A DNA stretch of 28,359 nt from Comamonas sp. (GTDB lineage: Bacteria; Pseudomonadota; Gammaproteobacteria; Burkholderiales; Burkholderiaceae_C). The stretch lies in the NCBI GenBank assembly GCA_019236485.1, contig JAFAIY010000523.1, positions 1 to 28,359 on the forward strand, read 5' to 3'. Of this stretch, positions 1,048-14,049 are shown piece after piece. Under the pieces are notes generated by a model. That model ran no database searches, had not been told where the DNA came from, and saw only the letters and a program-made list of their open reading frames with translations. The translations under genes and the position numbers were made by a program. The stretch's first letter is position 1. Every line of letters begins with the position of its first letter.

Positions 1048-1110
1048 GGCGGGGTGAATTGTTCGTGGTTCTGCCGGCCTTGGCATTGCGCCATGGCCTG
1101 TCTCGCGGGC

Positions 1111-1139
1111 ATTTCACCCGCGCGCGCGCAGCACGTCAA
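1111..1139 (-). promoter_or_regulatory. Candidate sigma70-type promoter for the fds operon
   Basis: Read on the minus strand there is TTGACG, a 17-nt spacer and TGAAAT, about 65 bp upstream of the fdsGB ATG. The -35 box matches consensus at 5 of 6 positions and the -10 box at 4 of 6. The spacer is an alternating CG run. A LysR binding site may be nearby, but I could not identify one. Confidence 0.4.
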
Positions 1140-1188
1140 ATTCATTCACCCAATGGCGGCATTTCTTTTGCGAATCAAGCAGACCGCT

Positions 1189-2148
1189 CTAGCCCTGATT
1201 CAGCTGCCCCGCAAAGCGCTGGCATTGCGCCTGCCATTGCGGGCTTTGCAGCAGCTCGGTCGCGGCCTGCAGGGCACGCGTGGCGCTGTCGGCTGGCTGG
1301 GCGAGAAAGGCGATGGCCGTCTGCAGCTGCGGCCGCACCAGCGGATGGATGGCCAGCCCCTGGCTCTGCGCCAGGGTCGCCACCAGGGCGCCGGGCAGCA
1401 CGCTGCTCATGCCGCATTCGGCCACGGCCATGGTCAGCGTCAGCACCGAGTTGGTCTCCATCGCGGCCTCGACCTTGCAGCCCGCGGCCCTGAAGCCCTC
1501 GTCGACGATCAGACGGTTGTGCATATCGGGCGTGAGCAGGCATAGCGGCGACTGCGCAGCCTGCGCCCAGGACATGGGCTTGCCCATGCCCGCACGCTTG
1601 CCGGGCCGCAGCAGATAGTAGTGCTCCAGATACTGGGGCCAGACCTGCAGGCGCGCCTTCTGCGCGCGCGCGCCGCGCCGGCCGTCACCTTCGGGCATGC
1701 GCTCGCTATAGCCTAGCGCCAGATCCAGGGACAGGTCCTCCAGCCCGCCCTCCAGCTCCAGCGAACTCATGGACAGCACCACGGGCGTGATGCCCGGATG
1801 CTGCTCGCGCAGCAGCGCCGCAAAGCGCGTGAGCATGGGCATGGCCGTGGGCACGGCCGCCATGCGCAGCTGCCCCTTGAGCCGGCCCGCGCCCAGGCTC
1901 AGATCCTGGCGCAGCGCCTCTTCGGACTTGAGCATGGACAGCGCCGTGGCCAGCACCTGCTGGCCCTCGGGCGTCAGCCCCGCGAACACCCGGCCGCGGC
2001 GCACGATGACGATGCCGAACTCTTCCTCCAGCGCGCGCAGCGCGTTCGACAGCGCGGGCTGCGTGATATGACAGGCCAGCGCCGCACGGCCGAAATGGCG
2101 ATGCTCGTTGAGCGCCACCAGATAGCGCATCGAGGTCAGAAGGTTCAT
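1189..2148 (-). CDS. LysR-family transcriptional regulator, probable regulator of formate dehydrogenase
   Basis: This 319-residue protein has the usual LysR length. Residues 1-60 form the winged helix-turn-helix (RHFGRAALACHITQPALSNAL), and residues about 90-300 form the type 2 periplasmic-binding-like effector domain. It binds DNA as a multimer and responds to a small ligand that cannot be read from sequence. It lies directly upstream of fdsGB in the same direction, so control of the fds genes, as by FdsR in other betaproteobacteria, is a reasonable inference. The start at 2148 places the HTH at the N terminus as expected; its ribosome site is weak. The 141-bp gap to fdsGB holds a promoter-like sequence, so fdsGB may not depend on read-through. 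Confidence 0.85.
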   Translation of the reverse strand: MNLLTSMRYLVALNEHRHFGRAALACHITQPALSNALRALEEEFGIVIVRRGRVFAGLTPEGQQVLATALSMLKSEEALRQDLSLGAGRLKGQLRMAAVPTAMPMLTRFAALLREQHPGITPVVLSMSSLELEGGLEDLSLDLALGYSERMPEGDGRRGARAQKARLQVWPQYLEHYYLLRPGKRAGMGKPMSWAQAAQSPLCLLTPDMHNRLIVDEGFRAAGCKVEAAMETNSVLTLTMAVAECGMSSVLPGALVATLAQSQGLAIHPLVRPQLQTAIAFLAQPADSATRALQAATELLQSPQWQAQCQRFAGQLNQG

Positions 2149-2227
2149 GGAGATTCAAGCCCTCAGCGACAAACCGTTAACAAGCCCCTGCCTCCCGAGC
2201 CATCACAGCGCAGCAAACGGACGCCGG

Positions 2228-2350
2228 GCAAGAGCCTGAGCCGGCCGCGCCGCCTCGCAGCGGGAGCGCCCAGCTGAGGGTGTCGTCCCCCTCCCGCGAA
2301 GCGAGAGAGGGGGAAGCCGCGGTGCCACCTAGGCGGGGCCGCTCAGGGGG
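2228..2350 (-). repeat. Dispersed stop-codon-proximal GC-rich element, copy A (after mrp)
   Basis: Read on the minus strand it starts a few bases after the mrp stop with CCCCCTGAGCGGC. It continues to a hairpin CTTCCCCCTC...GAGGGGGACGAC, the block ACACCCTC, and a GC-rich tail GCGAGGCGGCGCGGCCGGC ending near CTCTTGCC. The same order of blocks occurs at 7890-7976, 10257-10361 and 17893-17980. Each copy is just downstream of a stop codon and in the gene's own orientation. Confidence 0.75.
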
Positions 2351-2352
2351 TG

Positions 2353-2373
2353 TTTCTCAGGTCCCCTGAGAAA
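2353..2373 (-). other. Perfect 9-bp hairpin overlapping the mrp stop codon
   Basis: TTTCTCAGG (2353-2361) and CCTGAGAAA (2365-2373) are exact inverse complements around a 3-nt loop, and the TGA stop of mrp (2359-2357) lies within the structure. No U tract follows on the minus strand, so it is not a standard intrinsic terminator. It may act on the mRNA 3' end together with the repeat that follows. Confidence 0.5.
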
Positions 2374-3448
2374 CCGTGATCGTCGGGAACTTGCTCGAGA
2401 AGTCCTTGGCCTTCAAAGCCACCTTCACGGCCAGGTCGCGCGCCACCTTTTTGTAGACCTGGGCGGCCTCGCTCTCGGGCTCGGCCACCACCGTGGGCCT
2501 GCCGCTGTCGGCCTGCAGGCGGATCTGCAGCGACAGGGGCAGAGCGCCCAGATAGTCGATGTTCTGCTCGGCCGCCATCTTCTTGCCGCCGTCGGCGCCG
2601 AAGATATGCTCCACATGGCCGCAGTTGGTGCAGACATGGACCGCCATGTTCTCGACCAGACCCAGAATCGGCACACCGACCTTCTCGAACATCTGCACGC
2701 CCTTCTTGGCGTCGATCAGCGCGATGTCCTGGGGCGTGGTCACGACCACGGCACCCGTCATAGGCACGCGCTGGGCCAGGGTCAGCTGGATGTCGCCGGT
2801 GCCCGGAGGCATGTCGACCAGCAGATAGTCGAGGTCCTTCCAGTTGGTCTGACGCAGCATCTGCTCCAGCGCCTGGGTGGCCATGGGGCCGCGCCAGATC
2901 ATGGCCTGGTCGTTGCTGACCAGCAGGCCTATGGACATCACCTGCACGCCGTAGTTCTCCAGCGGCTCCATGGTCTTGCCGTCATGGCTTTCGGGCTTGC
3001 CCGAGACGCCCATCATCATGGGCTGGCTGGGGCCGTAGATATCGGCATCCAGAATGCCCACGCGCGCGCCTTCGGCGGCCAGCGCCAGCGCCAGGTTGGC
3101 CGTGGTCGTGCTCTTGCCCACGCCGCCCTTGCCCGAGGAGATGGCGATGATGTTCTTCACGCCAGGCAGCAGCTGCACGCCGCGCTGCACCGCATGGGCC
3201 GCGACCTTGGTGGTGATGTTGACGGAGACATTGCCCACGCCGGCCACGGACCTGGCCGCGGCGATGAACTGGCTGCGCAGCGCGGGCAGCAGGCTTTGGG
3301 CCGGATAGCCCATTTCCACGTCAAAGGCCACGTCATCGCCCGCAATCTGCAGATTGCGCAGGGCGCGCGTGCTTACAAAGTCCTTGCCCGTGTGCGGATC
3401 GAGCACTGCGGCGAGCGCCGTCAGTAGCGCTTGTTCTGTTACAGCCAT
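2357..3448 (-). CDS. apbC: Iron-sulfur cluster carrier protein Mrp/ApbC (P-loop ATPase)
   Basis: This 363-residue cytoplasmic protein is of the Mrp/NBP35 family, which binds and transfers [4Fe-4S] clusters to apoproteins. Residues about 5-80 form the MIP18-like (DUF59) domain. The deviant Walker A motif GKGGVGKST is at 106-114, DADIYGPSQPMMMG follows, and DMPPGTGD is the Walker B/switch region. CTNC near residue 275 holds the paired cysteines that bridge a cluster between subunits. The ATG at 3448 was chosen because conserved sequence begins there (MAVTEQALLTAL); the frame is open further upstream but shows no family similarity. It is transcribed away from the Mrr-like gene. A 9-bp hairpin overlaps the stop codon and a dispersed GC-rich element follows at once. 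Nothing looks truncated or foreign. Confidence 0.95.
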   Translation of the reverse strand: MAVTEQALLTALAAVLDPHTGKDFVSTRALRNLQIAGDDVAFDVEMGYPAQSLLPALRSQFIAAARSVAGVGNVSVNITTKVAAHAVQRGVQLLPGVKNIIAISSGKGGVGKSTTTANLALALAAEGARVGILDADIYGPSQPMMMGVSGKPESHDGKTMEPLENYGVQVMSIGLLVSNDQAMIWRGPMATQALEQMLRQTNWKDLDYLLVDMPPGTGDIQLTLAQRVPMTGAVVVTTPQDIALIDAKKGVQMFEKVGVPILGLVENMAVHVCTNCGHVEHIFGADGGKKMAAEQNIDYLGALPLSLQIRLQADSGRPTVVAEPESEAAQVYKKVARDLAVKVALKAKDFSSKFPTITVSQGT

Positions 3449-3534
3449 TGGATAAAGTTTTCCAGAGGTTTCTTCGATGAGGGATAGTCTAGCGAAGGCG
3501 GCCAACCCCAGAGCAGGAGAGACAATGTAGCTTT

Positions 3535-3558
3535 GCCCGAAGCCCCCTGGCCTCGGGC
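3535..3558. other. Possible 5' UTR hairpin upstream of the Mrr-like gene
   Basis: GCCCGA and TCGGGC pair across an inner GCC/GGC stem with a 4-nt loop, separated by one mismatch. It lies in the 145-bp divergent region between mrp and the Mrr-like gene. There is no T run, and the role is unknown. I saw no convincing promoter pair in this intergenic region. Confidence 0.3.
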
Positions 3559-3593
3559 TCCGCCCAAGACAGATACCGATAGAGAGACTCCCC

Positions 3594-4175
3594 GTGAAAC
3601 TGAAGATGGCCGAAAACTCCTTGTTCGCAGTCCTGATGCGCTCGCGCTGGTGGATCAGCTTTGCGATCTGCGCCGCCGTGGTACTGATCTCCCTGGCCGT
3701 CTTCCCCAAGGACATCTCGCCGTTCGCGGCCCTGGGCGCATTCCCGTTCTTCATCGTGGGCTGCATGGCTTTCTACAAGCAGTGGCGCGCGCCCAGCCCC
3801 GCGCGGCTGGAGCAGATCCGGCAGGTCCTGGCCGAGCAGTCCTGGGCCGACTTCAGCGCCCAGCTGCAGGCCGCCTGGCAGGCCGAGGGCTATGAGGTGC
3901 AGCGCCTGAACCAGCCCGGTGCGGATCTGCTGCTGACGCGCAACGGCCAGACCAGCGTGGTCGGCGCGCGCCGCTGGAAGGCCGCCGTCCATGGGGTGGA
4001 GCCGCTGCGCGAGCTGCTGGCCGCGCGCGCCAAGCAGCAGGCCGACCAGGCCGTGTATGTGGCCCTGCAGCCGCTGGGCGAGAACGCGGCCGGCTGGGCC
4101 GCGCAGAACCAGATCCTGCTGCTGGACGCCACCGCCATCGCCACGCTGATCGCCAAGGGGCGCCCCAACCGCTGA
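3594..4175 (+). CDS. Membrane-anchored Mrr-like (restriction endonuclease fold) protein, active site apparently degenerate
   Basis: This 193-residue protein has two hydrophobic segments (about residues 19-38 and 44-61) followed by a cytoplasmic domain at about 80-190 resembling the Mrr catalytic fold: SWADFSAQLQAAWQAEGYEVQRL, then GADLLLTRNGQTSVVGARRWKAA and GVEPLRELL. In active Mrr-type nucleases the acidic residue is followed by a Q/E-x-K motif, typically QCKRWK. Here the matching stretch is GARRWK, so both the Q/E and the metal-binding lysine appear to be replaced, while the preceding Asp remains. The protein may bind DNA or have another role without cutting. The GTG at 3594 is preferred because AGAGAG lies at suitable distance; ATG at 3606 is the alternative. 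It starts divergently from mrp and 60 bp precede the next gene. Confidence 0.75.
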   Translation: MKLKMAENSLFAVLMRSRWWISFAICAAVVLISLAVFPKDISPFAALGAFPFFIVGCMAFYKQWRAPSPARLEQIRQVLAEQSWADFSAQLQAAWQAEGYEVQRLNQPGADLLLTRNGQTSVVGARRWKAAVHGVEPLRELLAARAKQQADQAVYVALQPLGENAAGWAAQNQILLLDATAIATLIAKGRPNR

Positions 4176-4235
4176 GGGCCGGGCGCTGCGCCCAGAGGTC
4201 TGGCCGCGCAGTCGCAATCCGGGCACACTGCGGCC

Positions 4236-5525
4236 ATGGCCGCAGAGCAGTTCTCACCCACCCTCCCCCCGAGCCTGGCGGCTGCGGCCCGGCGCGACGC
4301 CGCAGGCCCGGCCTCCAGCGTGGGCCCGGCCGGCCTGCTGCTCAGCGGCGGCGGTGCACGCGCGGCTTACCAGGTAGGCGTGCTCGAGGCCGTTGCCGAG
4401 ATACGCCGCGACCACGGCCTGAGAAACGGGCCCAATCCCTTTCCCGTACTCACGGGCACTTCGGCGGGCGCCATCAATGCCGCGGCCCTGGCCTGCCATA
4501 GCGACAACTTCGACTACGCGGTGCGGCAGATGGTCCAGGTCTGGCGCAATATGCATACCGAGCAGATCTACCGGGCCGACTCGCTGAGCGTGCTACGCAG
4601 CGGCGCACACTGGCTCACGCTGCTGTCCCTGGGCTGGGCCGTGGCCCGCTGGAGCCGGCTGCGCCCCCGCTCCCTGCTGGACAACAGGCCTCTGAAGGCC
4701 TTGCTGCACAGCGAGCTCATACCGCTGGAAAGACTGCCCGCGCTGATCGACGGCGGCCATCTGCACGCGCTGGCCGTCACCGCCTCGAGCTACAGCAGCA
4801 GCCAGCACATCACTTTCTTCCAGACCCTCGAATGCCTGAGCCCCTGGGTGCGCGACCAGCGCAAGGCCTTGCAGACCACGCTCACGCCCAGGCATCTGCT
4901 GGCCTCCTCGGCCCTGCCCTTCATCTTTCCCGCCATGGCCCTGCCCATGGACGGGCATATCGAATATTTCGGCGACGGCTCCATGCGCCAGACCGCGCCC
5001 CTGGCCCCGCCCATACATCTAGGCGCACGCAAGCTGCTGGTCGTGGGCGCGGGCCGCCGCTACGAGGCACCCGAGCCCTGGCCGCGGCCCAGCGCCAGCT
5101 ACCCCACGCTGTCCCAGGTCGCGGGCCATGCTCTGTCCAGCATCTTTCTGGACACCCTGGCCGTGGACATAGAGCGTGCCGAGCGCATCAACCACACGCT
5201 GTCGCTGATCTCGCCGGCCGAGCGCATCCGCAGCCATCTGCGCCCCATAGAGCTGCTGGCCATCACCCCGTCCGAGCCCATAGACCAGATCGCCGCACGC
5301 CATATAGACCGGCTGCCGCTACCTATACGCACGCTGCTGAGCACGCTGGGCGTGCGCAGCGGCACGGGCGACGGCGCCCTGGCCAGCTATCTGCTGTTCG
5401 AGAAAAGCTATACGCGGGAGCTGATGGCCCTGGGCCGGCGCGACGCTCTGGGCCGCGGCGAGGAAATCGCCCAGTTCTTCGGCTGGAGCAAACCGCCGGC
5501 CGCGGCGCCCGCAGCCGACGCCTGA
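4236..5525 (+). CDS. Patatin-like phospholipase family protein
   Basis: The protein has 429 residues. The oxyanion-hole glycine loop SGGGAR is at 37-42, the nucleophile elbow GTSAG at 74-78 (Ser76), and the catalytic Asp is in FGDGS (Asp247), giving the Ser-Asp dyad of patatins. Such enzymes hydrolyse acyl esters of phospholipids or neutral lipids. No signal peptide is visible, so a cytoplasmic or membrane-surface location is likely. Residues about 250-420 form a C-terminal extension of unknown role. The ATG at 4236 leaves a polar, alanine-rich N-terminal stretch before the domain and has no strong ribosome site, so the exact start is uncertain. It lies between the Mrr-like gene and metG, and no functional link is obvious. 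Confidence 0.88.
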   Translation: MAAEQFSPTLPPSLAAAARRDAAGPASSVGPAGLLLSGGGARAAYQVGVLEAVAEIRRDHGLRNGPNPFPVLTGTSAGAINAAALACHSDNFDYAVRQMVQVWRNMHTEQIYRADSLSVLRSGAHWLTLLSLGWAVARWSRLRPRSLLDNRPLKALLHSELIPLERLPALIDGGHLHALAVTASSYSSSQHITFFQTLECLSPWVRDQRKALQTTLTPRHLLASSALPFIFPAMALPMDGHIEYFGDGSMRQTAPLAPPIHLGARKLLVVGAGRRYEAPEPWPRPSASYPTLSQVAGHALSSIFLDTLAVDIERAERINHTLSLISPAERIRSHLRPIELLAITPSEPIDQIAARHIDRLPLPIRTLLSTLGVRSGTGDGALASYLLFEKSYTRELMALGRRDALGRGEEIAQFFGWSKPPAAAPAADA

Positions 5526-5530
5526 GCTCT

Positions 5531-5575
5531 GCTATCAATGGCAAAGCGGCCAGCGCCTGCCATCCCTTGAGTTCA
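5531..5575. repeat. Degenerate GATAGC/AGCGCTTG-type interspersed repeat
   Basis: GCTATCAA followed by GGCCAGCGCCTGCCATCC lies directly after the patatin stop codon. It matches 481-517 in block order with several substitutions. The rest of 5576-5700 shows no recognisable feature. Confidence 0.35.
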
Positions 5576-5705
5576 GTCTGAATATTCATTGAGTTTCATA
5601 AACTACATGCGCCAGCAGCTTTGTTTTCAGGAGCATTGGCGGCCCAAGCGCCTATGCGCCCAGGCCGACAAGACCCGGTAATCGGCAGCCTGCGGCGGGC
5701 GCTCC

Positions 5706-5711
5706 TAAAAT
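5706..5711 (+). promoter_or_regulatory. Candidate -10 box for metG
   Basis: TAAAAT lies 31 bp before the ATG at 5742. The distance is close to that between the TAAAAT at 15984 and the DUF3460 ATG. No good -35 box is seen at 16-18 bp. If this box is used, transcription starts near 5717, too late for the AGGG that would serve the upstream GTG at 5724. This favours the ATG at 5742. Confidence 0.4.
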
Positions 5712-5741
5712 GCAGGGTTCACCGTGAAAGCTGTTTTTCTC

Positions 5742-7889
5742 ATGACCGCACGCAAAATCTTCGCTACCACCGCCCTGCCGTATGCCAACGGCAACTTCCA
5801 CATCGGCCACATCATGGAATACATCCAGGCCGACACCTGGGTGCGGGCGCAGCGAATGCAGGGCAATGCGGTCAACTTCGTGGGCGCCGACGACGCCCAC
5901 GGCGCGCCCATCATGATCGCGGCCGAAAAGGCCGGCAAGACGCCCCAGCAGTTCGTGGCCGATATCGCCGCGGGCCGCAAGCAGTATCTCGACGGCTTCC
6001 ATATCGCCTTCGACAACTGGAGCAATACCGACAGCCCCGAGAACCACGAGCTGTCCAAGCAGATCTATCTGGACCTGAAGCAGGCCGGCTTCATCGAGAC
6101 CCGCACCATCGAGCAGTTCTTCGACCCCGAGAAGAACATGTTCCTGCCCGACCGCTTCATCAAGGGCGAATGCCCGCGCTGCCACGCCAAGGACCAGTAC
6201 GGCGACAACTGCGAGGTCTGCAGCTCGGTCTATGCGCCCACCGACCTGATCAACCCGTTCTCGGCCCTGTCCGGCGCCACGCCGGTGATGAAGACCTCCG
6301 AGCATTTCTTCTTCAAGCTCTCCGACCCGCGCGCCGTGGAGTTCCTGACCGAGTGGACGCAGAACGGCAAGCATGTGCAGCCCGAAGTCGCGGCCAAGAT
6401 CAAGGAATGGTTCGGCGTGCGCACCAATCCCGACGGCTCGACCAGCGAAGGCCTGGACGACTGGGACATCTCGCGCGACGCGCCCTATTTCGGCATCGAG
6501 ATCCCCGATGCACCCGGCAAGTACTTCTACGTCTGGCTGGACGCCCCGGTCGGCTATCTGGCCTCGCTCAAGAACCTGCTGAACCAGCGCGGCGAGGACT
6601 ATGACGCCTATATGGCCGACCCCGATCTCGAGCAGTACCACTTCATCGGCAAGGACATCATCACCTTCCACACCCTGTTCTGGCCCGCCATGCTCAAGTT
6701 CAGCGGCCGCAAGACGCCGACCAGGATCTGCGTGCACGGCTTCATGACCGTGAACAACGGCGAGAAGATGAGCAAGAGCCGCGGCACGGGCCTGGACCCG
6801 CTCAAGTACCTGAGCCTGGGCATGAACCCCGAGTGGCTGCGCTACTACCTGGGCGCCAAGCTCAACGGCAAGAACGAAGACATAGACTTCAACCCCGAAG
6901 ACTTCATGCTGCGCGTGAACTCCGACCTGATCGGCAAGTACGTGAACATCGCTTCGCGCGCCGCGGGCTTCATCAGCAAGCGCTTTGAAGGCAAGCTGGG
7001 CCAGGTGTCCGAGGACGGCCAGGCCCTGCTGGCCGCACTGCGCGAGCAGAAAGACGCCATCGTCCACGCCTACGAGGCCCGCGACACGGCCCGCGCCGCG
7101 CGCGAGATCATGCTGCTGTGCGACAAGGTCAACAGCTATGTGGACGCCAACAAGCCCTGGGAGCTGGCCAAGAAGGAAGGCATGGAAGCGCGCCTGCACG
7201 ATGTGTGCAGCACCTGCATCGAGGCCTTCCGTATCCTGACCATCTACCTCAAGCCCATTCTGCCGGGCGTGGCCGCCGCGGTGGCCGAGTTCCTGATCGT
7301 GCCGCCCGAGAGTTTCGGCGAGGTGGCCCAGCCCCTGGGCCTGGGTCACCAGATCGGCGAATACAAGCATCTGATGCAGCGCGTCGACCCCAAGCAGCTC
7401 GAAGCCCTGTTCGAAGCTCCCGCCGGCCAGGCCGCCCCCGCGGCCGAGCCCGCCAAGGCCGAGAAAAAAGCTGCCAAGAAGGCCGAACCCGTGATCGACC
7501 CCAACGCGCCCGGCGGCGAACCGCTGGCCGAGACCATTGGCATAGACGACTTCGTCAAGGTCGATCTGCGCATTGCCAAGATCCTCGAATGCAAGAGCGT
7601 CGAAGGCTCGACCAAGCTGCTGCAGCTGACCCTGGATGTGGGCGAAAAGAACGAGGACGGCCAGCCCAGGACGCGCAATGTGTTCAGCGGCATCTCCAGC
7701 ATGTACAGCCCCGAGCAGCTGCAGGGCAAGCTCACGGTGATGGTGGCCAATCTGGCGCCGCGCAAGATGAAGTTCGGCCTGTCCGAAGGCATGGTGCTGG
7801 CCGCCAGCCATGCCGACGAAAAGACCAACCCCGGCATCTATGTGCTCGAGCCCTTCCCGGGTGCTGCGCCCGGCATGAGAATCCACTGA
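5742..7889 (+). CDS. metG: Methionine-tRNA ligase
   Basis: This 715-residue class I aminoacyl-tRNA synthetase charges initiator and elongator tRNA-Met. The HIGH signature is at residues 20-23 and KMSKS begins at residue 342. The zinc-binding knuckle in the connective peptide is visible as CPRC...CEVC at about 145-162. An alanine/lysine-rich linker (about 563-585) leads to a C-terminal tRNA-binding domain similar to EMAP/Arc1p (about 605-715), which also mediates dimerisation. The start at 5742 (MTARKIF) is where conservation begins; an in-frame GTG at 5724 has an AGGG upstream and would add six residues. The stop codon overlaps the ATG of the lipoprotein frame (TGATG), and a dispersed GC-rich element begins immediately after it. 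Confidence 0.97.
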
Positions 7890-8332
7890 TGCCCGCTGAG
7901 TCGCTTCGCGCCTTCCCCCACAGGGGGACGACACCCTCGCCGCGGGGCGGCGCGGCCGGCTCTGGCCCTTGCTCGGTATCCCTCCTGCGGGACAGGGGCA
8001 GATCAAGCATCTGCAAGCCATGGCTGGCAGGTGCTTTTTTATGTCTGGCGCTTTCGGGCTGCACCGTGGTGACCGTGGGCGCCGCGGCCGTCAGCGTCAC
8101 GGCCACGGCCGTGGGCCTGGCGGCGGATGCGGCCGTGGGCACGGCCAAGATCGTGGGCAAAGGCGTGGGCAAGGCCTATGACGCCGTGACCGACGACAAG
8201 CCCGACGACAGCGGCATCAGCATCAAATACCGCGAAAGCGACCCCAGCCATCTCTACCGGCCGCCGGCACCGGAAGCCGTGCCTGCTGCTCCATCTCAGC
8301 CGCAGCCCACGCCGCCGGCCTTTGCGCCCTGA
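7889..8332 (+). CDS. Small lipoprotein, start codon uncertain
   Basis: The frame ending at 8332 encodes KPWLAGAFLCLALSGC, a good lipoprotein signal with the lipidated Cys at 8054-8056. It is followed by a small-residue TVVTVGAAAVSVTATAVGLAADAAVGTAKIVGKGVGKAYDAV segment and a proline-rich tail, about 92 residues after the Cys. The segment resembles short glycine/alanine/valine-rich outer-membrane lipoproteins of Burkholderiales; function unknown. No ATG, GTG or TTG lies within 90 bp before the signal. The only in-frame ATG is at 7889, overlapping the metG stop, and would translate the dispersed element into a roughly 40-residue N-terminal extension. A second possibility is ATG at 8020 in another frame, which reaches the correct frame if one T is lost from the T6 run at 8035-8040. 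A non-standard start such as ATC at 8009, with AGGGG upstream, is a third. Confidence 0.6.
   Translation: MPAESLRAFPHRGTTPSPRGGAAGSGPCSVSLLRDRGRSSICKPWLAGAFLCLALSGCTVVTVGAAAVSVTATAVGLAADAAVGTAKIVGKGVGKAYDAVTDDKPDDSGISIKYRESDPSHLYRPPAPEAVPAAPSQPQPTPPAFAP
7890..7976 (+). repeat. Dispersed stop-codon-proximal GC-rich element, copy B (after metG)
   Basis: CTGAGTCGCTTCGCGCCTTC, a short CCCCC/GGGGG hairpin, GGGGGACGACACCCTCGC, and GCGGGGCGGCGCGGCCGGC ending in GGCCCTTGC. It is close to copy D (17893-17980) over its full length, roughly four bases in five by eye, and starts one base after the metG stop. Confidence 0.8.
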
Positions 8333-8413
8333 GCGGCCAGACATCTGCGGCGCAAAGCCAAGCACAATGCGCAAGCATAAATAAATAACCGAAAACTTCC
8401 TGTTACATCACCC

Positions 8414-8494
8414 GGGTATTGGCCCCGGAACAGGAAGCGGCCTTCCTAGAATCCGTTCACCCACCGATCTGCTTGTGCCGCGTGACGGCCGAGA
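8414..8494 (+). promoter_or_regulatory. Promoter and 5' leader motif of the cytochrome/flavoprotein operon (copy 1 of 2)
   Basis: Blocks in order: GGGTATT (8414-8420), 26 nt, TAGAATC (8447-8453, probable -10), 14 nt, then TCTGCTTGTGCCGCGTG (8468-8484) followed by ACGGC. The same blocks recur at 11496-11576 with spacings of 27 and 13 nt. The core contains GCCG-CGTGA-CGGC, able to form a 4-bp hairpin. The element ends about 135 nt before the cytochrome ATG, implying a leader of some 165-170 nt. The rest of 8333-8629 has an A/T-rich stretch near 8375-8395 and no gene. Confidence 0.6.
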
Positions 8495-8629
8495 GAAGGC
8501 ATGCCCTGCCTTCAGGCCTATAACAAAGGCCGTGAACGCTCAAGCATCGAGGCTTTTCCATCCACCTGTGATTGATGCTCCACGGGCACGCGCCTGTTGC
8601 CGCGAACCGTGGAACCATCGGGAGGCCCC

Positions 8630-8974
8630 ATGCCATTCAAACCTTGCTTTACCCCCGCCAGCCGCGCGCTCTGGCTGGCCCTCGCCATCACGGCCGGCGC
8701 GCCCGCATTGGCCGCCGACGGCCCCCCTGGGCTGCGCGCCCAGGACGTGGCCGTGCTGGCCGCCAGCTGCGCCAACTGCCATGGGCCGGATGGCCGCTCC
8801 ACGGGCGGCATTCCCGCGCTGCGCGGCGTGGCCGAAGCGCATCTGCTGGCCAGACTGCAGGCCTTCAAGGCTGGGACGGCCAAGGACGCCGCCGTCATGA
8901 CCCGCCTGGCCAAGGGCTATGACGACGAACAGCTCAAGGCTCTGGCCCAGTGGTTCGCCAAGGAGGGCAAATAA
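8630..8974 (+). CDS. Monohaem c-type cytochrome, probable electron acceptor of sulfide dehydrogenase
   Basis: This 114-residue exported protein has a Sec signal peptide ending near ALAAD (residues 1-29). A single haem-binding CANCH lies at 47-51, and a likely axial Met is at 90 (AAVMTRLAKGY). The size suits a class I cytochrome c553-like protein. It overlaps the next gene by one base (TAATG), which argues for translational coupling and a working pair, as in FccA/FccB flavocytochrome c, where the cytochrome accepts electrons from the FAD subunit in the periplasm. The FccA of Allochromatium is dihaem, so this is a shorter single-haem partner. The ATG at 8630 has a perfect GGAGG at 8621-8625. 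Confidence 0.9.
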   Translation: MPFKPCFTPASRALWLALAITAGAPALAADGPPGLRAQDVAVLAASCANCHGPDGRSTGGIPALRGVAEAHLLARLQAFKAGTAKDAAVMTRLAKGYDDEQLKALAQWFAKEGK

Positions 8975-10251
8975 TGCAGATCAATCGTCGTCAGATTCTC
9001 GGTGGCGCGGCCGCCGGTGCCGCCAGCCTGGCCCTGCCCGCCATCGTGCAGGCCAAGGCCGCTGCGGCCCATGTGGTCGTCATCGGCGGCGGCTTCGGCG
9101 GTGCCACGGCAGCGCGCTATCTGCGCCAGTTTGCGCCCCATGTCCAGGTCACGCTGGTCGAACCTGCCGAGCGCTTCTACACCTGCCCCTTCTCCAATCT
9201 GTACCTGGCCGGCCTGCGCAGTTGGGACAGCATAGGCCATGGCTTTGACGGCCTGCGCAAGGCCGGTGTAAACGTAGTCCATGCACGCGCCGACCAGGTG
9301 CTGAGCGACTCGCGCCGCGTGCTGCTGTCCACCGGCCAGGCCCTGAGCTACGACAGGCTGGTGCTCTCGCCCGGCGTCGACATGCGCTGGAACTCGCTGG
9401 AGGGCTATGACGAAGCGGCCTCACAACTCGCCCCCCATGCCTGGAAGGCCGGAGCCCAGACCCAGCTGCTCAAGCAGCAGCTCGAAGCCATGCCCGATGG
9501 CGGCAAGTTTGTGATGGTGATTCCGGCCAACCCCTTCCGCTGCCCGCCCGGCCCATACGAGCGTGCGGCCATGGTGGCGCATTACCTCAAGAAGCACAAA
9601 CCTAGGTCCAAGATTCTTCTGCTGGACGACAAGGACGCCTTTTCCAAGCAAGGCCTGTTCATCCAGGGCTGGAAGGCCTTGTACGGGGACATGATCGAAT
9701 GGGTCAAGCAGGCCGACGACGGCAAGGTCACGCGTGTGGACGCCAGGAATCTTGAAGTGGAAACCGCGTTCGGCACCAGGCACAAGGCCGATGTGCTCAA
9801 TGTCATCCCGCCGCAGAAGGCCGGCTTCATCGCCGACCGCGCCGGCGTGACGGATGCCAGCGGCTGGGTGCCCGTCAAGGCCGAGTCCTTCGAGTCCAGG
9901 CTGGTGTCCAATGTCTATGTGCTGGGCGACGCCACGATTGCCGCGCCCATGCCCAAGTCCGGCTTTGCGGCCAACACCCAGGGCAAGGTGGCAGCGGCCG
10001 CGATTGCGGCCGAGCTTACCGGCCAGCCCCTGCCCGCTGCGGCCTATGCCAACACCTGCTACAGCCTGATCGGCACCGACTACGGCATCTCCGTGGCCGG
10101 CGTCTACCGCGCTCAGCAGGGCAAGCTGATCGAGGTAGCCGACTCCGGCGGCGTCAGTCCGCTGGACGGCAATGCGGCTTTCCGCAAGGCCGAGGCCGAC
10201 TATGGCGCGGCCTGGTACAAGGCCATCGCCACGGATATCTGGGGAGCTTGA
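8974..10251 (+). CDS. Flavocytochrome c sulfide dehydrogenase flavoprotein subunit, covalent-FAD type (FccB-like 1)
   Basis: The 425-residue periplasmic flavoprotein starts with a Tat signal (NRRQILGGAAAG). The Rossmann motif VVIGGGFGG is at 35-43. FYTCPFSN places Cys71 where FCSD binds FAD through an 8-alpha-thioether. Cys189 (PFRCPPGPYERAAM) and Cys362 (ANTCYSLIGTDYGISV) are the redox-active pair that accepts sulfide sulfur. VYVLGDA near residue 318 is the second FAD-binding motif. The expected reaction is sulfide to sulfane sulfur with electrons passed to the preceding cytochrome. The start at 8974 overlaps the cytochrome stop by one base and has AAGGAGG upstream; the earlier in-frame GTG at 8950 lies inside the cytochrome gene. 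A dispersed GC-rich element follows the stop. Confidence 0.92.
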   Translation: MQINRRQILGGAAAGAASLALPAIVQAKAAAAHVVVIGGGFGGATAARYLRQFAPHVQVTLVEPAERFYTCPFSNLYLAGLRSWDSIGHGFDGLRKAGVNVVHARADQVLSDSRRVLLSTGQALSYDRLVLSPGVDMRWNSLEGYDEAASQLAPHAWKAGAQTQLLKQQLEAMPDGGKFVMVIPANPFRCPPGPYERAAMVAHYLKKHKPRSKILLLDDKDAFSKQGLFIQGWKALYGDMIEWVKQADDGKVTRVDARNLEVETAFGTRHKADVLNVIPPQKAGFIADRAGVTDASGWVPVKAESFESRLVSNVYVLGDATIAAPMPKSGFAANTQGKVAAAAIAAELTGQPLPAAAYANTCYSLIGTDYGISVAGVYRAQQGKLIEVADSGGVSPLDGNAAFRKAEADYGAAWYKAIATDIWGA

Positions 10252-10256
10252 TGAGG

Positions 10257-10361
10257 TTCACCCCCTGAGATGCTGACGCGCCTTTCCCCTTGTCTCGCGG
10301 TGCTTCGCTTGCGGGAAGGGGGACGCCACCATCGCTGCGAGGCGGCTCTTGCTTGGTGGCT
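10257..10361 (+). repeat. Dispersed stop-codon-proximal GC-rich element, copy C (after flavoprotein 1)
   Basis: CACCCCCTGAGATGC, CGCCTTTCCCCTT...GGGAAGGGGGACGCC hairpin arms, then ATCGCTGCGAGGCGGC and CTCTTGCTTGG. This is the most diverged copy but keeps the block order, the orientation and the position a few bases after a stop codon. It separates flavoprotein 1 from the transporter gene; the remaining bases up to 10437 show no clear promoter. Confidence 0.65.
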
Positions 10362-10437
10362 CTCACCTGCGCGCCGAAGGCCTGCACCAGTTGTATTTCA
10401 AGGCTGTACTTCCGCATGCCTTGCTTGAGTCATAGAT

Positions 10438-11481
10438 ATGTTGCTGTGGTGGTCCGTTTTTTTGCTGGGCGTGGCGTTTGGTGCGGCCGCGCGGCTGGGG
10501 CGTTTCTGCCTGCTGCGCGGTCTGCGCCAGCAACTGTGGCTGGACGCTGAAGTCGCAGCAGGCCAGACGCCTGCGCTGCAGGGCTTTGCCCTGGCGCTGG
10601 CCGTGGCCTTGCTGGCCTCGCAAGGCCTGAGCGCCCTGGGCCTGGTGGATCTCAAGCAGGCCGCGGTTGCCAGGTCCGGCTTTTCCATGCCTGCCGTGCT
10701 GACGGGCGGCGTCCTGTTTGGCATAGGCATGGTGCTGGCCCGCGCCTGCGGCGCGCGCTCACTGGTGCTGCTGGCCGGGGGCAATCTGCGCTCGCTGGTG
10801 ACGGTGATTTTTCTGGCGCTCGGCGCACAGCTGGCCATGACCGGCGTGCTGACGCCCCTGCGCCAATGGCTGCAGGCGCTGGCTCCGCTCCCCTTGCCCC
10901 ATGCCACGCTGCCCGGCTATCTGCCGGCCGGCGAAGCGGCTTCGGTGTTTGGCGCAGCGCTGCTGACCCTGACGCCGGCACTGCTGCTCCTTGCCTATGC
11001 GCTGCTGCGCCCCGCACTGCGCCAGAGCCCGCTGCAGCTGGCCAGTGCGCTGGTGATTGGCCTGCTGGTGGCCGCCGGCTGGTGGATCACGGCCCATGTG
11101 GATGTCGATCCCTTCGAGCCCGCCAGGCTCACATCGCTGAGCTTTGTCGGCCCGATTGCCGAAACCCTGCTGTATCTGCAGCTGTCCGTGGGTCGCGAAC
11201 CCGGCATTGGCCTGGCACTGACAGCGGGCGTGCTCGCCGGTGCATTTTTCGCAGCGCTGGCCAGCCGCACGGCCCGCTGGGAAGGCTTTGATTCCACCGG
11301 CCGCCTGGCCGCCAGCGCGGGCGGCGGCCTGCTCATGGGTTTTGGCGGCGTGCTGGCCGCGGGCTGCTCCATAGGCCAGGGCCTGACGGGGCTGTCCACG
11401 CTTTCATTGGCCAGCTTTCCTGCCATCGCCGGCATCCTGCTGGGAGCACTGGGCGCACTGGCTCTGCAGCGCCAGCAATAG
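10438..11481 (+). CDS. YeeE/YedE-family transporter, probable thiosulfate importer (TsuA-like)
   Basis: This 347-residue integral membrane protein has about nine hydrophobic segments. It has the family's three cysteines in membrane motifs: Cys24 (GRFCLLRG), Cys104 (LARACGARS) and Cys310 (LAAGCSIGQGLTG). In characterised TsuA the equivalent cysteines pass thiosulfate through the membrane. GGNLRSL after Cys104 and GLSTLSLASF after Cys310 are also typical. The position between two FCSD-like genes and upstream of soxYZ supports a role with reduced sulfur compounds, though other members move different sulfur species. The ATG at 10438 has only a weak ribosome site; no better start is seen. The frame ends 298 bp before the next gene. 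Confidence 0.88.
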   Translation: MLLWWSVFLLGVAFGAAARLGRFCLLRGLRQQLWLDAEVAAGQTPALQGFALALAVALLASQGLSALGLVDLKQAAVARSGFSMPAVLTGGVLFGIGMVLARACGARSLVLLAGGNLRSLVTVIFLALGAQLAMTGVLTPLRQWLQALAPLPLPHATLPGYLPAGEAASVFGAALLTLTPALLLLAYALLRPALRQSPLQLASALVIGLLVAAGWWITAHVDVDPFEPARLTSLSFVGPIAETLLYLQLSVGREPGIGLALTAGVLAGAFFAALASRTARWEGFDSTGRLAASAGGGLLMGFGGVLAAGCSIGQGLTGLSTLSLASFPAIAGILLGALGALALQRQQ

Positions 11482-11495
11482 CGCTGGCTTCGCTT

Positions 11496-11576
11496 GGGTA
11501 TTCGCCGATTCCGAATCAAAGCCAACTTCTAGAATCTCCAGCCACTAGCTCTGCTTGTGCCGCGTGTCGGCTGGGA
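11496..11576 (+). promoter_or_regulatory. Promoter and 5' leader motif of the flavoprotein2-soxYZ operon (copy 2 of 2)
   Basis: GGGTATT (11496-11502), 27 nt, TAGAATC (11530-11536), 13 nt, TCTGCTTGTGCCGCGTG (11550-11566) followed by TCGGC. The hairpin stem GCCG/CGGC is kept while one loop base differs from copy 1 (A there, T here). GATTCCGAATC (11507-11517) is a small palindrome between the first two blocks and has no counterpart in copy 1. From 11577 to 11779 the leader holds no clear gene. A reading frame from 11555 is open into the flavoprotein but lacks a ribosome site and codes for nothing recognisable. Confidence 0.6.
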
Positions 11577-11779
11577 GGGACTCTCATCCATTGCTGTGTG
11601 ACCACAAAAACACGTTCAGAACGTCACACTCCCTGCGCTCAAGCCTGCTTTCCTTCGCCCCTGAATGCCGGAACTCAGTCCTCTGCCTAAGCGGCAGATC
11701 TGGACAGGCTGCGCAATTCAGGGCTGATGAATCGCCTGCGCCAACTCGGCAGGCCTTCACGCTTACAGGAGCAACGCCT

Positions 11780-13117
11780 ATGCAACGTCGCCACTTTCTC
11801 CGGACTCCACCCGCCCTCGCCCTGGGAGCGGCCGCTGCCACCTCCTCGGCTTTTGCCGCGCCCGCCATCATCACGGGTCAGTCCCGTATCCTGCCGCGCC
11901 AGGGCAAGGGGCCGCGCATCGTGATCTGCGGCGGCGGCTGGGGCGGCCTCACGGCCGCACGCTATCTGCGCGAGCTGATTCCCAACTCCGAGGTGGTGCT
12001 GCTGGAGCGCAACCCCACCTTCTGGTCCGGCCCCATGAGCAACAAATGGCTGGTGGACATCGTGGGCACGGACTTTGTGAACCGCGACATGCTGCACCCG
12101 GCCAACAAATATGGCTACACCTTGCTGCAGACCGAGGTCACGGGCTTCGAGCGCGACAAGAAGCTGGTGCGCACGGCCCATGGCCTGATCGAATACGACT
12201 TCCTGATTCTCTCGGGCGGCATACGCAACGACTACGAAGCCTGGTTCGGCAACGACCAGCGCGCCATCGACTACACGCGCAAGCATTTCCCCAACGCCTA
12301 TATTCCCAACCAGGAGATGCTGGCACTCAAGAGCAAGGTCAAGAACTTCAAGGGCGGCACGCTGGTGATGACCCTGCCGCCGCCGCCCCATCGCTGCCCG
12401 CCCTCGCCTTACGAGCGCGCCTGCCTGATCGCCTGGCATATCAAGAAGAACAAGATTCCCGGCAAGATCCTGATCCTCGACCCCAAGCCCAAGATTGCCC
12501 CCATAGGCGTGGGCTACAAGCAGGCTTTCGAGGAGCTGTACGCCGACATCATCACCCATGTGCCCAACGCCGGCGTCAAGGAGCTCGATCCGTTCAACAA
12601 GCAGATCAAGACCGCCGCGGGCGACTTCAAGTTCGACGATGCCATCCTCATGCCCCCGCACCAGGCGGCCGACATGGTGTGGCAAGCCGACCTGATCGGC
12701 AAGGACCCCACCACCGGCAAGCCCACGGGCTGGGCCGATATGCACAACCGCCTGTTCCACGCCAGGACCGACGACCGCGTGTACTTTGTCGGCGATCTGA
12801 TGGGAGCGATCTCGCCCCAGTTCGGCCACTACCCCAAGAGCGGCCATGTGGCCAACTATGTCGGCAAGATCGTGGCCCAGAACATTGCCGAGCGCGTGGC
12901 CGGCAAGGAAGTCGTGGCCCGGCTGCCCGACAACCTCTGCTACATGATGGTCAACGGCGATCCGCAGGAAGAAATCTCGGTCAAGTTCGAATACGAGGTC
13001 GACGCCAGCGGCCAGGTCAACCAGACCCAGATCGATATGGATGTGCGCACCTCCGACCTAGTCAAGGAGGACTTCGCCTGGATCAACGGCAAGTTCCGCG
13101 ACTTTCTCGCTATCTAA
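11780..13117 (+). CDS. FCSD-like flavoprotein lacking the covalent-FAD cysteine (FccB-like 2, SoxF-related)
   Basis: This 445-residue flavoprotein has a Tat signal (MQRRHFLRTPPALALGAAAA). The dinucleotide motif IVICGGGWGG is at 47-56. The two sulfide-reactive cysteines are kept: Cys206 (PPHRCPPSPYERACL) and Cys387 (DNLCYMMVNGDPQEEISV). The segment matching FYTCPFSN of the upstream paralogue reads FWSGPMSN, so the covalent-FAD cysteine is Gly84 and FAD is presumably held non-covalently. The C terminus after Cys387 is also more charged and differs from the paralogue. It begins the operon with soxY and soxZ, like SoxF with Sox proteins, so SoxY may be its sulfur or electron partner. The ATG at 11780 has AGGAG at 11767-11771 and starts the signal peptide exactly. 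Confidence 0.9.
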   Translation: MQRRHFLRTPPALALGAAAATSSAFAAPAIITGQSRILPRQGKGPRIVICGGGWGGLTAARYLRELIPNSEVVLLERNPTFWSGPMSNKWLVDIVGTDFVNRDMLHPANKYGYTLLQTEVTGFERDKKLVRTAHGLIEYDFLILSGGIRNDYEAWFGNDQRAIDYTRKHFPNAYIPNQEMLALKSKVKNFKGGTLVMTLPPPPHRCPPSPYERACLIAWHIKKNKIPGKILILDPKPKIAPIGVGYKQAFEELYADIITHVPNAGVKELDPFNKQIKTAAGDFKFDDAILMPPHQAADMVWQADLIGKDPTTGKPTGWADMHNRLFHARTDDRVYFVGDLMGAISPQFGHYPKSGHVANYVGKIVAQNIAERVAGKEVVARLPDNLCYMMVNGDPQEEISVKFEYEVDASGQVNQTQIDMDVRTSDLVKEDFAWINGKFRDFLAI

Positions 13118-13120
13118 GAC

Positions 13121-13627
13121 ATGACGACAACCCACCATCTCACTCGCCGCCATTGGGTAGCCGGCACTGCGGCCCTGGCGCTGCCATCGGCCGTACTCGC
13201 CCAAGCCACCCAAGCCATCAATCCCGTGGCCAAGTCTGCCCTGGTCGGCCCGCTGGCACCCAACCCCGCAGAGTTCAAAAAGACCATGGAGCAGTTCAGC
13301 GGCGGCAAGCCCGCACAGGCCGATGGCCTGCTGCTCGATGTGCCCGTGCTGGCCGACAACCCCAGCGCCGTGCCCGTCAAGGTCAAGGTGACCCTGCCCA
13401 TCACCGAGCAGGACTGGTGTGAGGAAATCATCGTGCTGGCCGAACTCAATCCTTCGCCGCTGACCTGCCGCCTGCAGTTCACGGCGGCAGCCGGCACGGC
13501 CGAGGCCGCGGTGCGCATACGCCTGTCCCAATCCCAGAACATCCATGCCCTGGCCCGCATGAAGAGCGGCAAGGTGCTGCAGGCCAAGCAAGCCGTCACC
13601 GTGGCCGCCAGCGGCTGCGGCATGTGA
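13121..13627 (+). CDS. soxY: Thiosulfate oxidation carrier protein SoxY, with altered C-terminal tail
   Basis: This 168-residue periplasmic protein has a Tat signal (TRRHWVAGTAALALPSAVLA) and the SoxY immunoglobulin-like body. SoxY carries sulfur intermediates on a cysteine in a flexible C-terminal arm, classically GGCGG. Here the arm ends ASGCGM, with Cys166 in the right place but changed flanks. Two further cysteines, Cys100 and Cys116, lie in the body. It begins three bases after the flavoprotein 2 stop and forms a complex with SoxZ, encoded 13 bp downstream. No soxA, soxX, soxB, soxC or soxD is in the window, so the usual loading and release enzymes must be elsewhere or absent. Confidence 0.9.
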   Translation: MTTTHHLTRRHWVAGTAALALPSAVLAQATQAINPVAKSALVGPLAPNPAEFKKTMEQFSGGKPAQADGLLLDVPVLADNPSAVPVKVKVTLPITEQDWCEEIIVLAELNPSPLTCRLQFTAAAGTAEAAVRIRLSQSQNIHALARMKSGKVLQAKQAVTVAASGCGM

Positions 13628-13640
13628 AGGAGTCGCCAAG

Positions 13641-13976
13641 ATGAGTCAAGCCAAGCCACCGCGCATCTGGGTCAGCAATGCCAATCCCCAAAAAGGCGAA
13701 GTGCTGCGCGTGCGCGCGCAGATGGAACATGTGATGGAAAGCGGCCTGCGCACCGACCCGGCCACGGGCAAGTTGCGCCCGCGCAATATCGTCAGCCGCT
13801 TTGAAGCCAGGCTGGGCAACAGCCTGCTGTTCAGCTGGGAGCCCGGCATTTCGATTGCCCAGAATCCCTATATCGAATTCACCTTCCTGGCCCGCGAAAG
13901 CGGCGAGCTGCATATGCATTGGAAGGACGAACAAGGCCAGACGCTGAGCGCGCAAAAGGCGATTACCGTTGCCTGA
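13641..13976 (+). CDS. soxZ: Thiosulfate oxidation carrier complex protein SoxZ
   Basis: This 111-residue protein of typical SoxZ length has no signal peptide, as expected because SoxZ is exported by the Tat system together with SoxY. Recognisable segments are KGEVLRVRAQMEHVMESGLR near 17-37 and the closing beta strands HMHWKDEQGQTLSAQKAITV. It heterodimerises with SoxY and helps present the carrier arm. AAGGAG directly after the SoxY stop gives a strong ribosome site for ATG 13641. It is the last gene of the island, with an intrinsic terminator 20 bp after the stop. Confidence 0.93.
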   Translation: MSQAKPPRIWVSNANPQKGEVLRVRAQMEHVMESGLRTDPATGKLRPRNIVSRFEARLGNSLLFSWEPGISIAQNPYIEFTFLARESGELHMHWKDEQGQTLSAQKAITVA

Positions 13977-13996
13977 TCGCGCAAGCCCCTAGTAAG

Positions 13997-14032
13997 AAGC
14001 CCCGCCGGTGAATACCGCAGCGGGGCTTTTTA
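13997..14032 (+). terminator. Rho-independent terminator after soxZ
   Basis: AAGCCCCGC (13997-14005) pairs perfectly with GCGGGGCTT (14020-14028), with a further CGGT/ACCG stem inside, followed by a run of T to 14031. The opposite strand has only a broken U tract, so the terminator mainly serves soxZ but may also stop the convergent YitT gene, which ends at 14050. Confidence 0.9.
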
Positions 14033-14049
14033 CATGGCAGCCAGACGGC

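Follow-up and report, generated by a model that had tools for sequence, protein, structure and literature searches.

The stretch of DNA considered here, which we call the window, is contig JAFAIY010000523.1 (C598; 28,359 nucleotides) of the Comamonas sp. assembly GCA_019236485.1 (G000). It carries on its plus strand, at 8630-13976, an island of six genes: one for a c-type cytochrome, two for flavoproteins of the flavocytochrome c sulfide dehydrogenase (FCSD) type, one for a membrane transporter and two for the carrier proteins SoxY and SoxZ. Our central result is that the genes for the second flavoprotein (FCSD2), SoxY and SoxZ form a core that recurs in many bacteria, often where SoxA, SoxB and SoxC of the canonical Sox system fall under their cut-offs. 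The assembly comprises 672 contigs and 4.08 Mb, and is 87% complete and 3.9% contaminated. Because FCSD2 of the window is closest to that of Comamonas suwonensis and C. testosteroni (91-93% identity, among the best 80 of 139 loci), the host belongs to Comamonas or close kin. The island is laid out as follows.

8630..8974, plus strand: monoheme cytochrome c, 114 amino acids, one CxxCH; PF00034 over cut-off
8974..10251, plus strand: FCSD1, FccB-type flavoprotein, 425 amino acids, RR near the N-terminus; PF21706 and PF09242 over cut-off
10438..11481, plus strand: YeeE/YedE-family (SoxT/TsuA-like) membrane transporter; PF04143 at 172 bits; 6LEO at E 1e-6
11780..13117, plus strand: FCSD2, SoxYZ-linked FCSD-like flavoprotein, 445 amino acids, RR near the N-terminus; PF21706 over cut-off, without PF09242
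13121..13627, plus strand: SoxY-like carrier, 168 amino acids, C-terminus SGCGM; PF13501 at 96.9 bits; 2OX5 at E 8e-15
13641..13976, plus strand: SoxZ, 111 amino acids; PF08770; TIGR04490 over cut-off
13990..14033, plus strand: terminator-like hairpin with a T run; fold -28.4 kcal/mol, z -6.8

A sequence-only reading of this DNA had described six plus-strand genes, among them two different FCSD flavoproteins, as one compact unit ending in a strong terminator. Profile searches and reading frames bear out the six genes, and the flavoproteins do differ, FCSD1 being of the FccB type and FCSD2 belonging to a separate clade. The hairpin is unusually stable (none of 200 shuffles was as stable), but it is not among the predictions of a consensus terminator scan. 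The six genes do stand in order; against a single unit, a leader motif precedes both the cytochrome gene and FCSD2, which suggests that the island may be two transcripts.

The FCSD2-SoxY-SoxZ core and its partners

One scan of 84,980 species genomes with FCSD2 gave 139 loci, of which the best 80 were used; 62 of these (64-93% identity) and the window make up the 63 island loci compared here. FCSD2, SoxY and SoxZ are contiguous and in that order at 61 of them, and at the other two (L031 and L039) the contig ends right behind FCSD2. FCSD1 lies near the core at 57 loci, the cytochrome at 53 and the YeeE-family protein at 48. A comparison of gene order across relatives, which the sequence-only reading had called for, shows that the six genes recur in the window's order, cytochrome-FCSD1-YeeE-FCSD2-SoxY-SoxZ, at 39 of the 63 loci, more than chance would give. 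Other orders or subsets account for 24 loci, namely cytochrome-FCSD1-FCSD2-SoxY-SoxZ without YeeE (six), FCSD2-SoxY-SoxZ-cytochrome-FCSD1-YeeE (six), the trio without the other three partners nearby (five), the trio with FCSD1 behind it (four), YeeE-FCSD2-SoxY-SoxZ (one) and the two loci cut off behind FCSD2. At four loci of the Oligella type, SoxZ and FCSD1 are separated by a diverged protein with CxxCH. The hosts include Comamonadaceae, Sphaerotilaceae, Alcaligenaceae and Paracoccaceae, among others.

At the other 18 loci (55-59% identity), some of them on short contigs, tblastn found none of the five partner proteins, and the neighbours read at L069, L072, L075 and L080 included no SoxYZ beside the FCSD2 relative. 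Judged from these neighbourhoods, partnership with SoxYZ is therefore the mark of one FCSD2 branch. Neighbouring genes were considered as further members of the module and rejected: in a comparison of 12 representative loci, frames outside the six matched at most 16 other loci, compared with at least 44 for the six genes where present. In the window, the island adjoins housekeeping genes for methionyl-tRNA synthetase and a NUBPL-type iron-sulfur carrier ATPase (5724-7886 and 2360-3766).

FCSD2 of the window matches the structure 5N1T at E 3e-43. A 51-sequence tree separates FCSD2, along with its distant kin, at 100/100 support from FccB, FCSD1 and the FCSD-like proteins that sox clusters encode, and by this placement FCSD2 is neither FccB nor SoxF but forms its own clade. 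SoxF of Paracoccus-type sox clusters resembles it in being an FCSD homologue encoded near SoxYZ. The tree nevertheless rules out FCSD2 as a SoxF, since the two SoxF-type sequences included, encoded beside soxCD at L095 and L096, fall on the FccB side. With residue roles taken from the parts of PMC3504083 that treat FccB, both disulfide-forming redox cysteines are kept in all 63 FCSD2 (Cys206 and Cys387 in the window). The flavin-tether cysteine (Cys42 of Allochromatium vinosum FccB) is kept in only nine of these SoxYZ-linked proteins, all alphaproteobacterial by title; in the other 54 the site holds Gly (50, including the window), Ala (2) or Leu (2). Each of the 29 other sequences compared has the tether cysteine. 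An RR pair lies near the N-terminus of 62 of the 63 FCSD2, with starts chosen mechanically. The FCSD2 relatives at L069, L072, L075 and L080 (56-57% identity) keep both redox cysteines and the tether cysteine.

That the carrier is SoxYZ holds without reserve for SoxZ, which scores 81.1 bits against the TIGR04490 cut-off of 76, but the SoxY-like protein stays under the cut-off for true SoxY (TIGR04488, 93.2 against 125 bits; SoxY of contig C78 in the same assembly, 162.7) and under that of SoxY_para_1 (TIGR04487, 87.1 against 172). The island shares with canonical Sox (SoxXA, SoxB, SoxYZ, SoxCD) the SoxYZ pair, the RR-type start of SoxY, with RR or RK near the N-terminus in 57 of 61 proteins (starts again chosen mechanically), and the arm cysteine near the C-terminus, which all 61 keep. 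Unlike canonical Sox, it has no SoxXA, SoxB or SoxCD, and its SoxY ends in SGCGM. This ending is found in 32 of the 61 island proteins, with GGCGM in 15, GGCGL in 8 and others in 6, and the last residue is Met, Leu or Ile in 60; all 11 canonical SoxY examined end in GGCGG. In a SoxY tree the canonical sequences stand apart with modest support (83/77), and those of the islands do not resolve as a single clade.

FCSD1 matches 5N1T at E 3e-142 and 1FCD at E 2e-125. With PF21706, PF09242, both redox cysteines, the flavin-tether cysteine and a neighbouring c-type cytochrome, it is by every feature compared a normal FccB; the Pfam model for a twin-arginine translocation signal scored under its cut-off on this protein. 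Together with its cytochrome it resembles FccAB of A. vinosum (1FCD) and Thioalkalivibrio (5N1T) in domains and in all key cysteines. FccA of A. vinosum is diheme. The island cytochrome, by contrast, has one heme motif, with a single CxxCH in all 53 orthologues found, and FCSD2 departs from FccAB in its separate clade and the frequent loss of the tether.

The description of the transporter as a TsuA-like importer is sound at the level of the PF04143 family, but the NCBIfam TsuA models score it far under their cut-offs (NF052577, 58 of 400 bits; NF041049, 50 of 645 bits). At about 350 amino acids, it has what defines the long SoxT/TsuA family (PF04143, about 330-350 amino acids, three conserved cysteines). 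Cys 24, 104 and 310 are kept in 47, 48 and 48 of 48 sequences, and three conserved cysteines are the trait given for SoxT and TsuA in section 6 of PMC11582611. It differs from SoxT and TsuA in those low model scores and in adjoining FCSD2-SoxYZ. To judge by profile models, the YeeE/YedE family spans thiosulfate transporters and putative selenium transporters.

Canonical Sox in this and other island-bearing genomes

The observation that no further sox genes accompany SoxYZ applies to the window but not to the assembly. Contig C78 (L004) encodes, all in one orientation, SoxC, a SoxD-like cytochrome, SoxY (ending in GGCGG), SoxZ, SoxA, SoxX and SoxB and then, at its edge, a YeeE-like protein. Six of these (SoxC, SoxY, SoxZ, SoxA, SoxX and SoxB) are over curated cut-offs; SoxD is called from its position and from genes placed alike in relatives. 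The sequence-only reading had proposed a search for soxA, soxX, soxB, soxC and soxD, and had named their presence together with co-expression as evidence against its minimal route; the genes are present, with SoxD as SoxD-like. C78 is unlikely to be a contaminant, its SoxB being 89-90% identical to those of C. suwonensis and C. testosteroni, near the 91-93% for FCSD2. The cluster rules out that other sox genes are absent from the genome, and the three SoxY places in the assembly rule out the island pair as the organism's sole SoxYZ. One of these places, on contig C180 (L005), encodes a fused SoxYZ of the quinoprotein-associated type; at 833-6155 this contig encodes PqqE, the fused SoxYZ together with a hydrolase related to SoxH, and a protein like FCSD1 whose weakly supported grouping is with Sphaerotilaceae, and the contig may be a contaminant of the bin. 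Close Comamonas relatives (G001-G004) carry the Sox cluster as well as the island, and a C. testosteroni relative (G002/G165) has both on one chromosome. Because C78 carries soxC, soxD-like, soxY, soxZ, soxA, soxX and soxB, the island does not, on gene content, replace canonical Sox in this genome. The idea of a minimal route bypassing Sox thus fails as a substitute for Sox in this organism, and what survives of it is the independence from SoxXAB and SoxCD seen across species.

This independence was assessed in 50 of the 62 named island loci, the set less L018, L023, L031, L039, L042, L047, L050, L060, L062, L063, L065 and L082; equal coordinates point to probable duplicates (G030/G188, G027/G243, G021/G172, G002/G165). 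SoxB is over its cut-off in 12 of the 50 genomes, SoxA in 15 and SoxC in 15. A thirteenth genome, the island-bearing Paracoccus G042, has soxB in two overlapping pieces (L098, about 9508-11123), possibly through a frameshift. SoxY is present in all 50, and in 27 it occurs in exactly one place. In each of these 27, SoxA, SoxB and SoxC are all under cut-off, and weaker matches reach at most 57.9 bits for SoxA (cut-off 110), 76.9 for SoxB (550) and 187.9 for SoxC (420). We read these matches as related families, because among 14 control genomes the SoxB model also gives weak matches in 10 and the SoxC model in 7, never over cut-off. Judged by their titles, sixteen of the 27 are neither metagenome-assembled nor uncultured genomes, and the remaining 11 may be incomplete; in two Alcaligenes genomes among the 27 (G032 and G034), the contig with the locus is the entire genome. 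Island hosts with SoxA, SoxB and SoxC all under cut-off include Simplicispira psychrophila DSM 11588, whose island lacks YeeE, and Comamonas denitrificans, which does have yeeE.

In a family sample of 200 genomes, FCSD2 at no less than 76% identity occurs in 10, and a SoxB match (E <= 1e-60) in 4 of these 10 compared with 107 of the 190 others (Fisher p 0.35). Three of the six SoxB-less island genomes (G054, G115 and G157) are single contigs of 100% completeness, G115 and G157 having one SoxY and G054 two. Ten further genomes have FCSD2 relatives at 52-58% identity, nine of them with SoxB. Since 27 of the 50 island genomes combine a single SoxY with SoxA, SoxB and SoxC under cut-off, the island shows, by gene content across species, INDEPENDENCE from canonical Sox and no dependence on SoxXAB or SoxCD.

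Two other kinds of locus were seen in passing. Another partial cluster lies at L097 (about 8013-9465), L099 (5301-7744), L100 (9289-13019) and L101 (8825-12180), with SoxA over cut-off in all four, a SoxY arm of GACT or GACE, an FCSD-like gene in three, and no soxB match within the fetched stretch. A faint resemblance to SoxB beside a Pusillimonas island (25%; L037, about 4696) probably reflects some other gene of the nucleotidase family, since the genome scan gave 67.5 bits against a cut-off of 550.

A leader before both halves of the island

The motif that precedes the cytochrome gene and FCSD2 occurs in the window with the following parts.

8447..8452, plus strand: TAGAAT, -10-like hexamer just upstream of leader a; TAGAAT/TAAAAT at similar distance in the listed leaders
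8462..8581, plus strand: leader copy a, before the cytochrome gene; 21-nt core 8469-8489; model R1 at 55.0 bits (training sequence)
11530..11535, plus strand: TAGAAT, -10-like hexamer just upstream of leader b, read from the sequence
11544..11675, plus strand: leader copy b, before FCSD2; core 11551-11571; model R1 at 67.0 bits (training sequence)

A hexamer resembling TAGAAT, the core and a region that varies are common to the leaders, most of which also have a further block near CAACGCYCAAGC; scanning the window island for the sigma-70 consensus gave no full promoter. The 21-nt core was chosen by eye from the window, where it occurs twice (none of 100 shuffles had two copies), and its pattern is found nowhere else in the assembly. 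Across 399 family genomes the pattern has 18 sites, 14 beside island genes and 4 elsewhere; a reversed control pattern also has 4. Within the family sample, 7 of the 10 island genomes have the core. Trained on 25 sequences, model R1 detects the leader at 24 of the 63 island loci, with 26 matches under E 1e-4. Each match precedes the cytochrome gene or FCSD2; 7 lie outside the training set, though they were known from pattern scans. R1 found no leader in 16 sox-type loci (L004, L086-L098, L100 and L101), nor in the island loci of Alcaligenaceae or Paracoccaceae. Among 250 genomes of the order, it matched this assembly and G165, with two further, faint matches (E 0.005 and 0.009). Firm matches to the leader come from this island alone. 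Rfam gave no match at E <= 1 for the leader region of the window and none at E <= 5 for L064; for L030, it gave MIR531 and Six3os1_5 on the opposite strand only, far under gathering scores.

Since both carry the same leader, there are hints that the two halves of the island form one regulon in Comamonadaceae, and in the window the leader-bearing halves are probably switched on together. The leader may be an RNA element or a DNA operator. In the leader alignment, 91.1% of cells are paired, a level that 5 of 500 shuffles reach. A helix P1, in which GCUUG would meet CAAGC, can form in 22 to 25 of the 25 rows, but few changes occur in it, and so we do not claim it.

A possible second use of the SoxYZ carrier

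Our preferred reading, to which we give slightly less than an even chance, is that the island is a portable periplasmic module for handling sulfide, with FCSD2, SoxY and SoxZ as its core, and that FCSD2 loads SoxY with sulfane sulfur, with no need of SoxXA or SoxB. In the course of events that we infer, sulfide would attack the redox disulfide of FCSD2 (Cys206/Cys387), two electrons would pass to the flavin and on to a soluble cytochrome c, and FCSD2 would then give up its sulfane sulfur to the arm cysteine of SoxY (SoxY-S-SH), so that SoxYZ would be charged without SoxXA and without thiosulfate. FCSD1 and its cytochrome, as an FccAB type, would act alongside as another sulfide dehydrogenase of the ordinary kind. 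In islands that have it, the YeeE-family protein would move sulfane sulfur via its three cysteines into the cytoplasm for oxidation or assimilation. In the chemistry of FCSD and SQR enzymes, an active-site cysteine ends up carrying sulfane sulfur, and a dedicated SoxY with an arm cysteine beside FCSD2 would be a natural acceptor. Part of PMC5336275 argues that SoxYZ-S-sulfane is the working form of the carrier, and a relay from SoxY to a YeeE-type channel is among the proposals of PMC11582611, for SoxT1 proteins. In a Cupriavidus soxCD mutant given thiosulfate, transcripts of yeeE, yedE and pdo rise, according to a portion of PMC9959259. The fuller version of this reading is possible, if somewhat doubtful: sulfide oxidation independent of SoxXA and SoxB by FCSD2-SoxYZ, with the SoxY arm thiol as sulfane acceptor (compare mitochondrial SQOR with small thiols), flavin adenine dinucleotide untethered in most hosts, delivery to a YeeE-family importer, and in Comamonadaceae an undescribed leader of its own, possibly a sulfur-sensing RNA.

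Several points weigh against the charging of SoxY by FCSD2 and what we attach to it. According to one section of PMC5336275, SoxAX is required in vitro even for the oxidation of sulfane-loaded SoxYZ, and this genome has a canonical Sox system that could itself load the island SoxYZ. FCSD2 may be a sulfide dehydrogenase no longer, because the tether cysteine is mostly lost and the window copy is without PF09242; distant FCSD2 relatives without SoxYZ exist. Import by YeeE cannot be essential, because the protein is missing near 15 of the 63 cores. As for a sensing RNA, covariation in the leader is not significant (one pair changed on both sides; 237 of 500 shuffles equal this), and 5 of 6 folded leaders are not above shuffles in stability by 2 standard deviations.

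The loss of the tether, which sets FCSD2 apart from sulfide dehydrogenases, would also fit a different task. SoxF, the FCSD homologue of sox clusters, assists Sox, and FCSD2 could be a SoxF-like helper that repairs or reactivates the carrier by oxidising or resolving blocked arm cysteines of SoxY (disulfide dimers, wrong adducts), the sulfur coming from FccAB (FCSD1) or spontaneously from polysulfide. FCSD1 usually stands beside FCSD2 (57 of 63), and SoxYZ cross-linked through the arm cysteine, as well as the activation of inactive carrier, is described in part of PMC5336275. We nevertheless consider repair unlikely: FCSD2 does not group with the two SoxF-type proteins in the tree, at five loci FCSD2-SoxYZ stands without FCSD1 in its vicinity, and no canonical Sox cycle to be assisted was found in 27 of the 50 genomes.

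The same gene counts bear on the idea that the island is an accessory of canonical Sox, a second carrier and two flavoproteins extending the substrates to sulfide, with SoxXAB and SoxCD of C78 finishing the oxidation. The Sox clusters of this genome and of its close Comamonas relatives speak for such a role. It is made distinctly improbable by the scarcity of SoxB, over cut-off in just 12 of 50 island genomes and matched in 4 of 10 in the family sample, and by the absence of the island leader from the 16 sox-type loci. Least probable, and quite remote in our estimation, is that the module serves to detoxify or assimilate a different sulfur or thiol species, such as organic persulfides, thiosulfate or tetrathionate, with little tie to energy-yielding sulfide oxidation. 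Divergent SoxY with altered arms are proposed in part of PMC11237559 to bind other compounds, and the largely lost tether and the range of the YeeE/YedE family, with its thiosulfate and putative selenium transporters, would suit this; the neighbouring cytochrome c and FccB-type FCSD1 point instead to periplasmic sulfide oxidation into the respiratory chain.

The variants of PMC11237559 (SoxY-S1b, S1c, S3, SoxYZ-S2, S4) are, in the parts of that paper considered, a close parallel as SoxY paralogues with changed arms in gene islands of their own, and the legend of its Fig. 4 names YeeE/D among the island genes. They differ in their neighbours, which are genes for dimethyl sulfoxide reductase, tetrathionate reductase, pyrroloquinoline quinone alcohol dehydrogenase or formate/methanol dehydrogenase; those parts describe no FCSD-SoxYZ island. 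A literature search, judged largely by titles and abstract openings, turned up no description of the FCSD2-SoxYZ island, and an earlier report may exist. Each part of the island has been known; what appears new is their pairing, together with the alteration of FCSD2, the lack of dependence on Sox, and the leader.

SoxYZ is commonly taken as a sign of thiosulfate oxidation through the Sox cycle. We find that the pair is often retained without SoxA, SoxB and SoxC, behind one particular FCSD relative. Because many bacteria have this set without the remaining classical machinery of sulfur oxidation, gene content suggests that the carrier is usable in a second way. If FCSD2 does charge SoxY, "Sox-positive" annotations would need revision, perhaps including one that counts an Alcaligenes faecalis isolate, obtained on sulfur-oxidizer agar, as SOX-bearing because of soxY and soxZ, the SOX genes reported for it (PMC9872586). 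The exit of sulfane sulfur from SoxY to the cytoplasm in truncated systems would then become testable in hosts without a Sox background.

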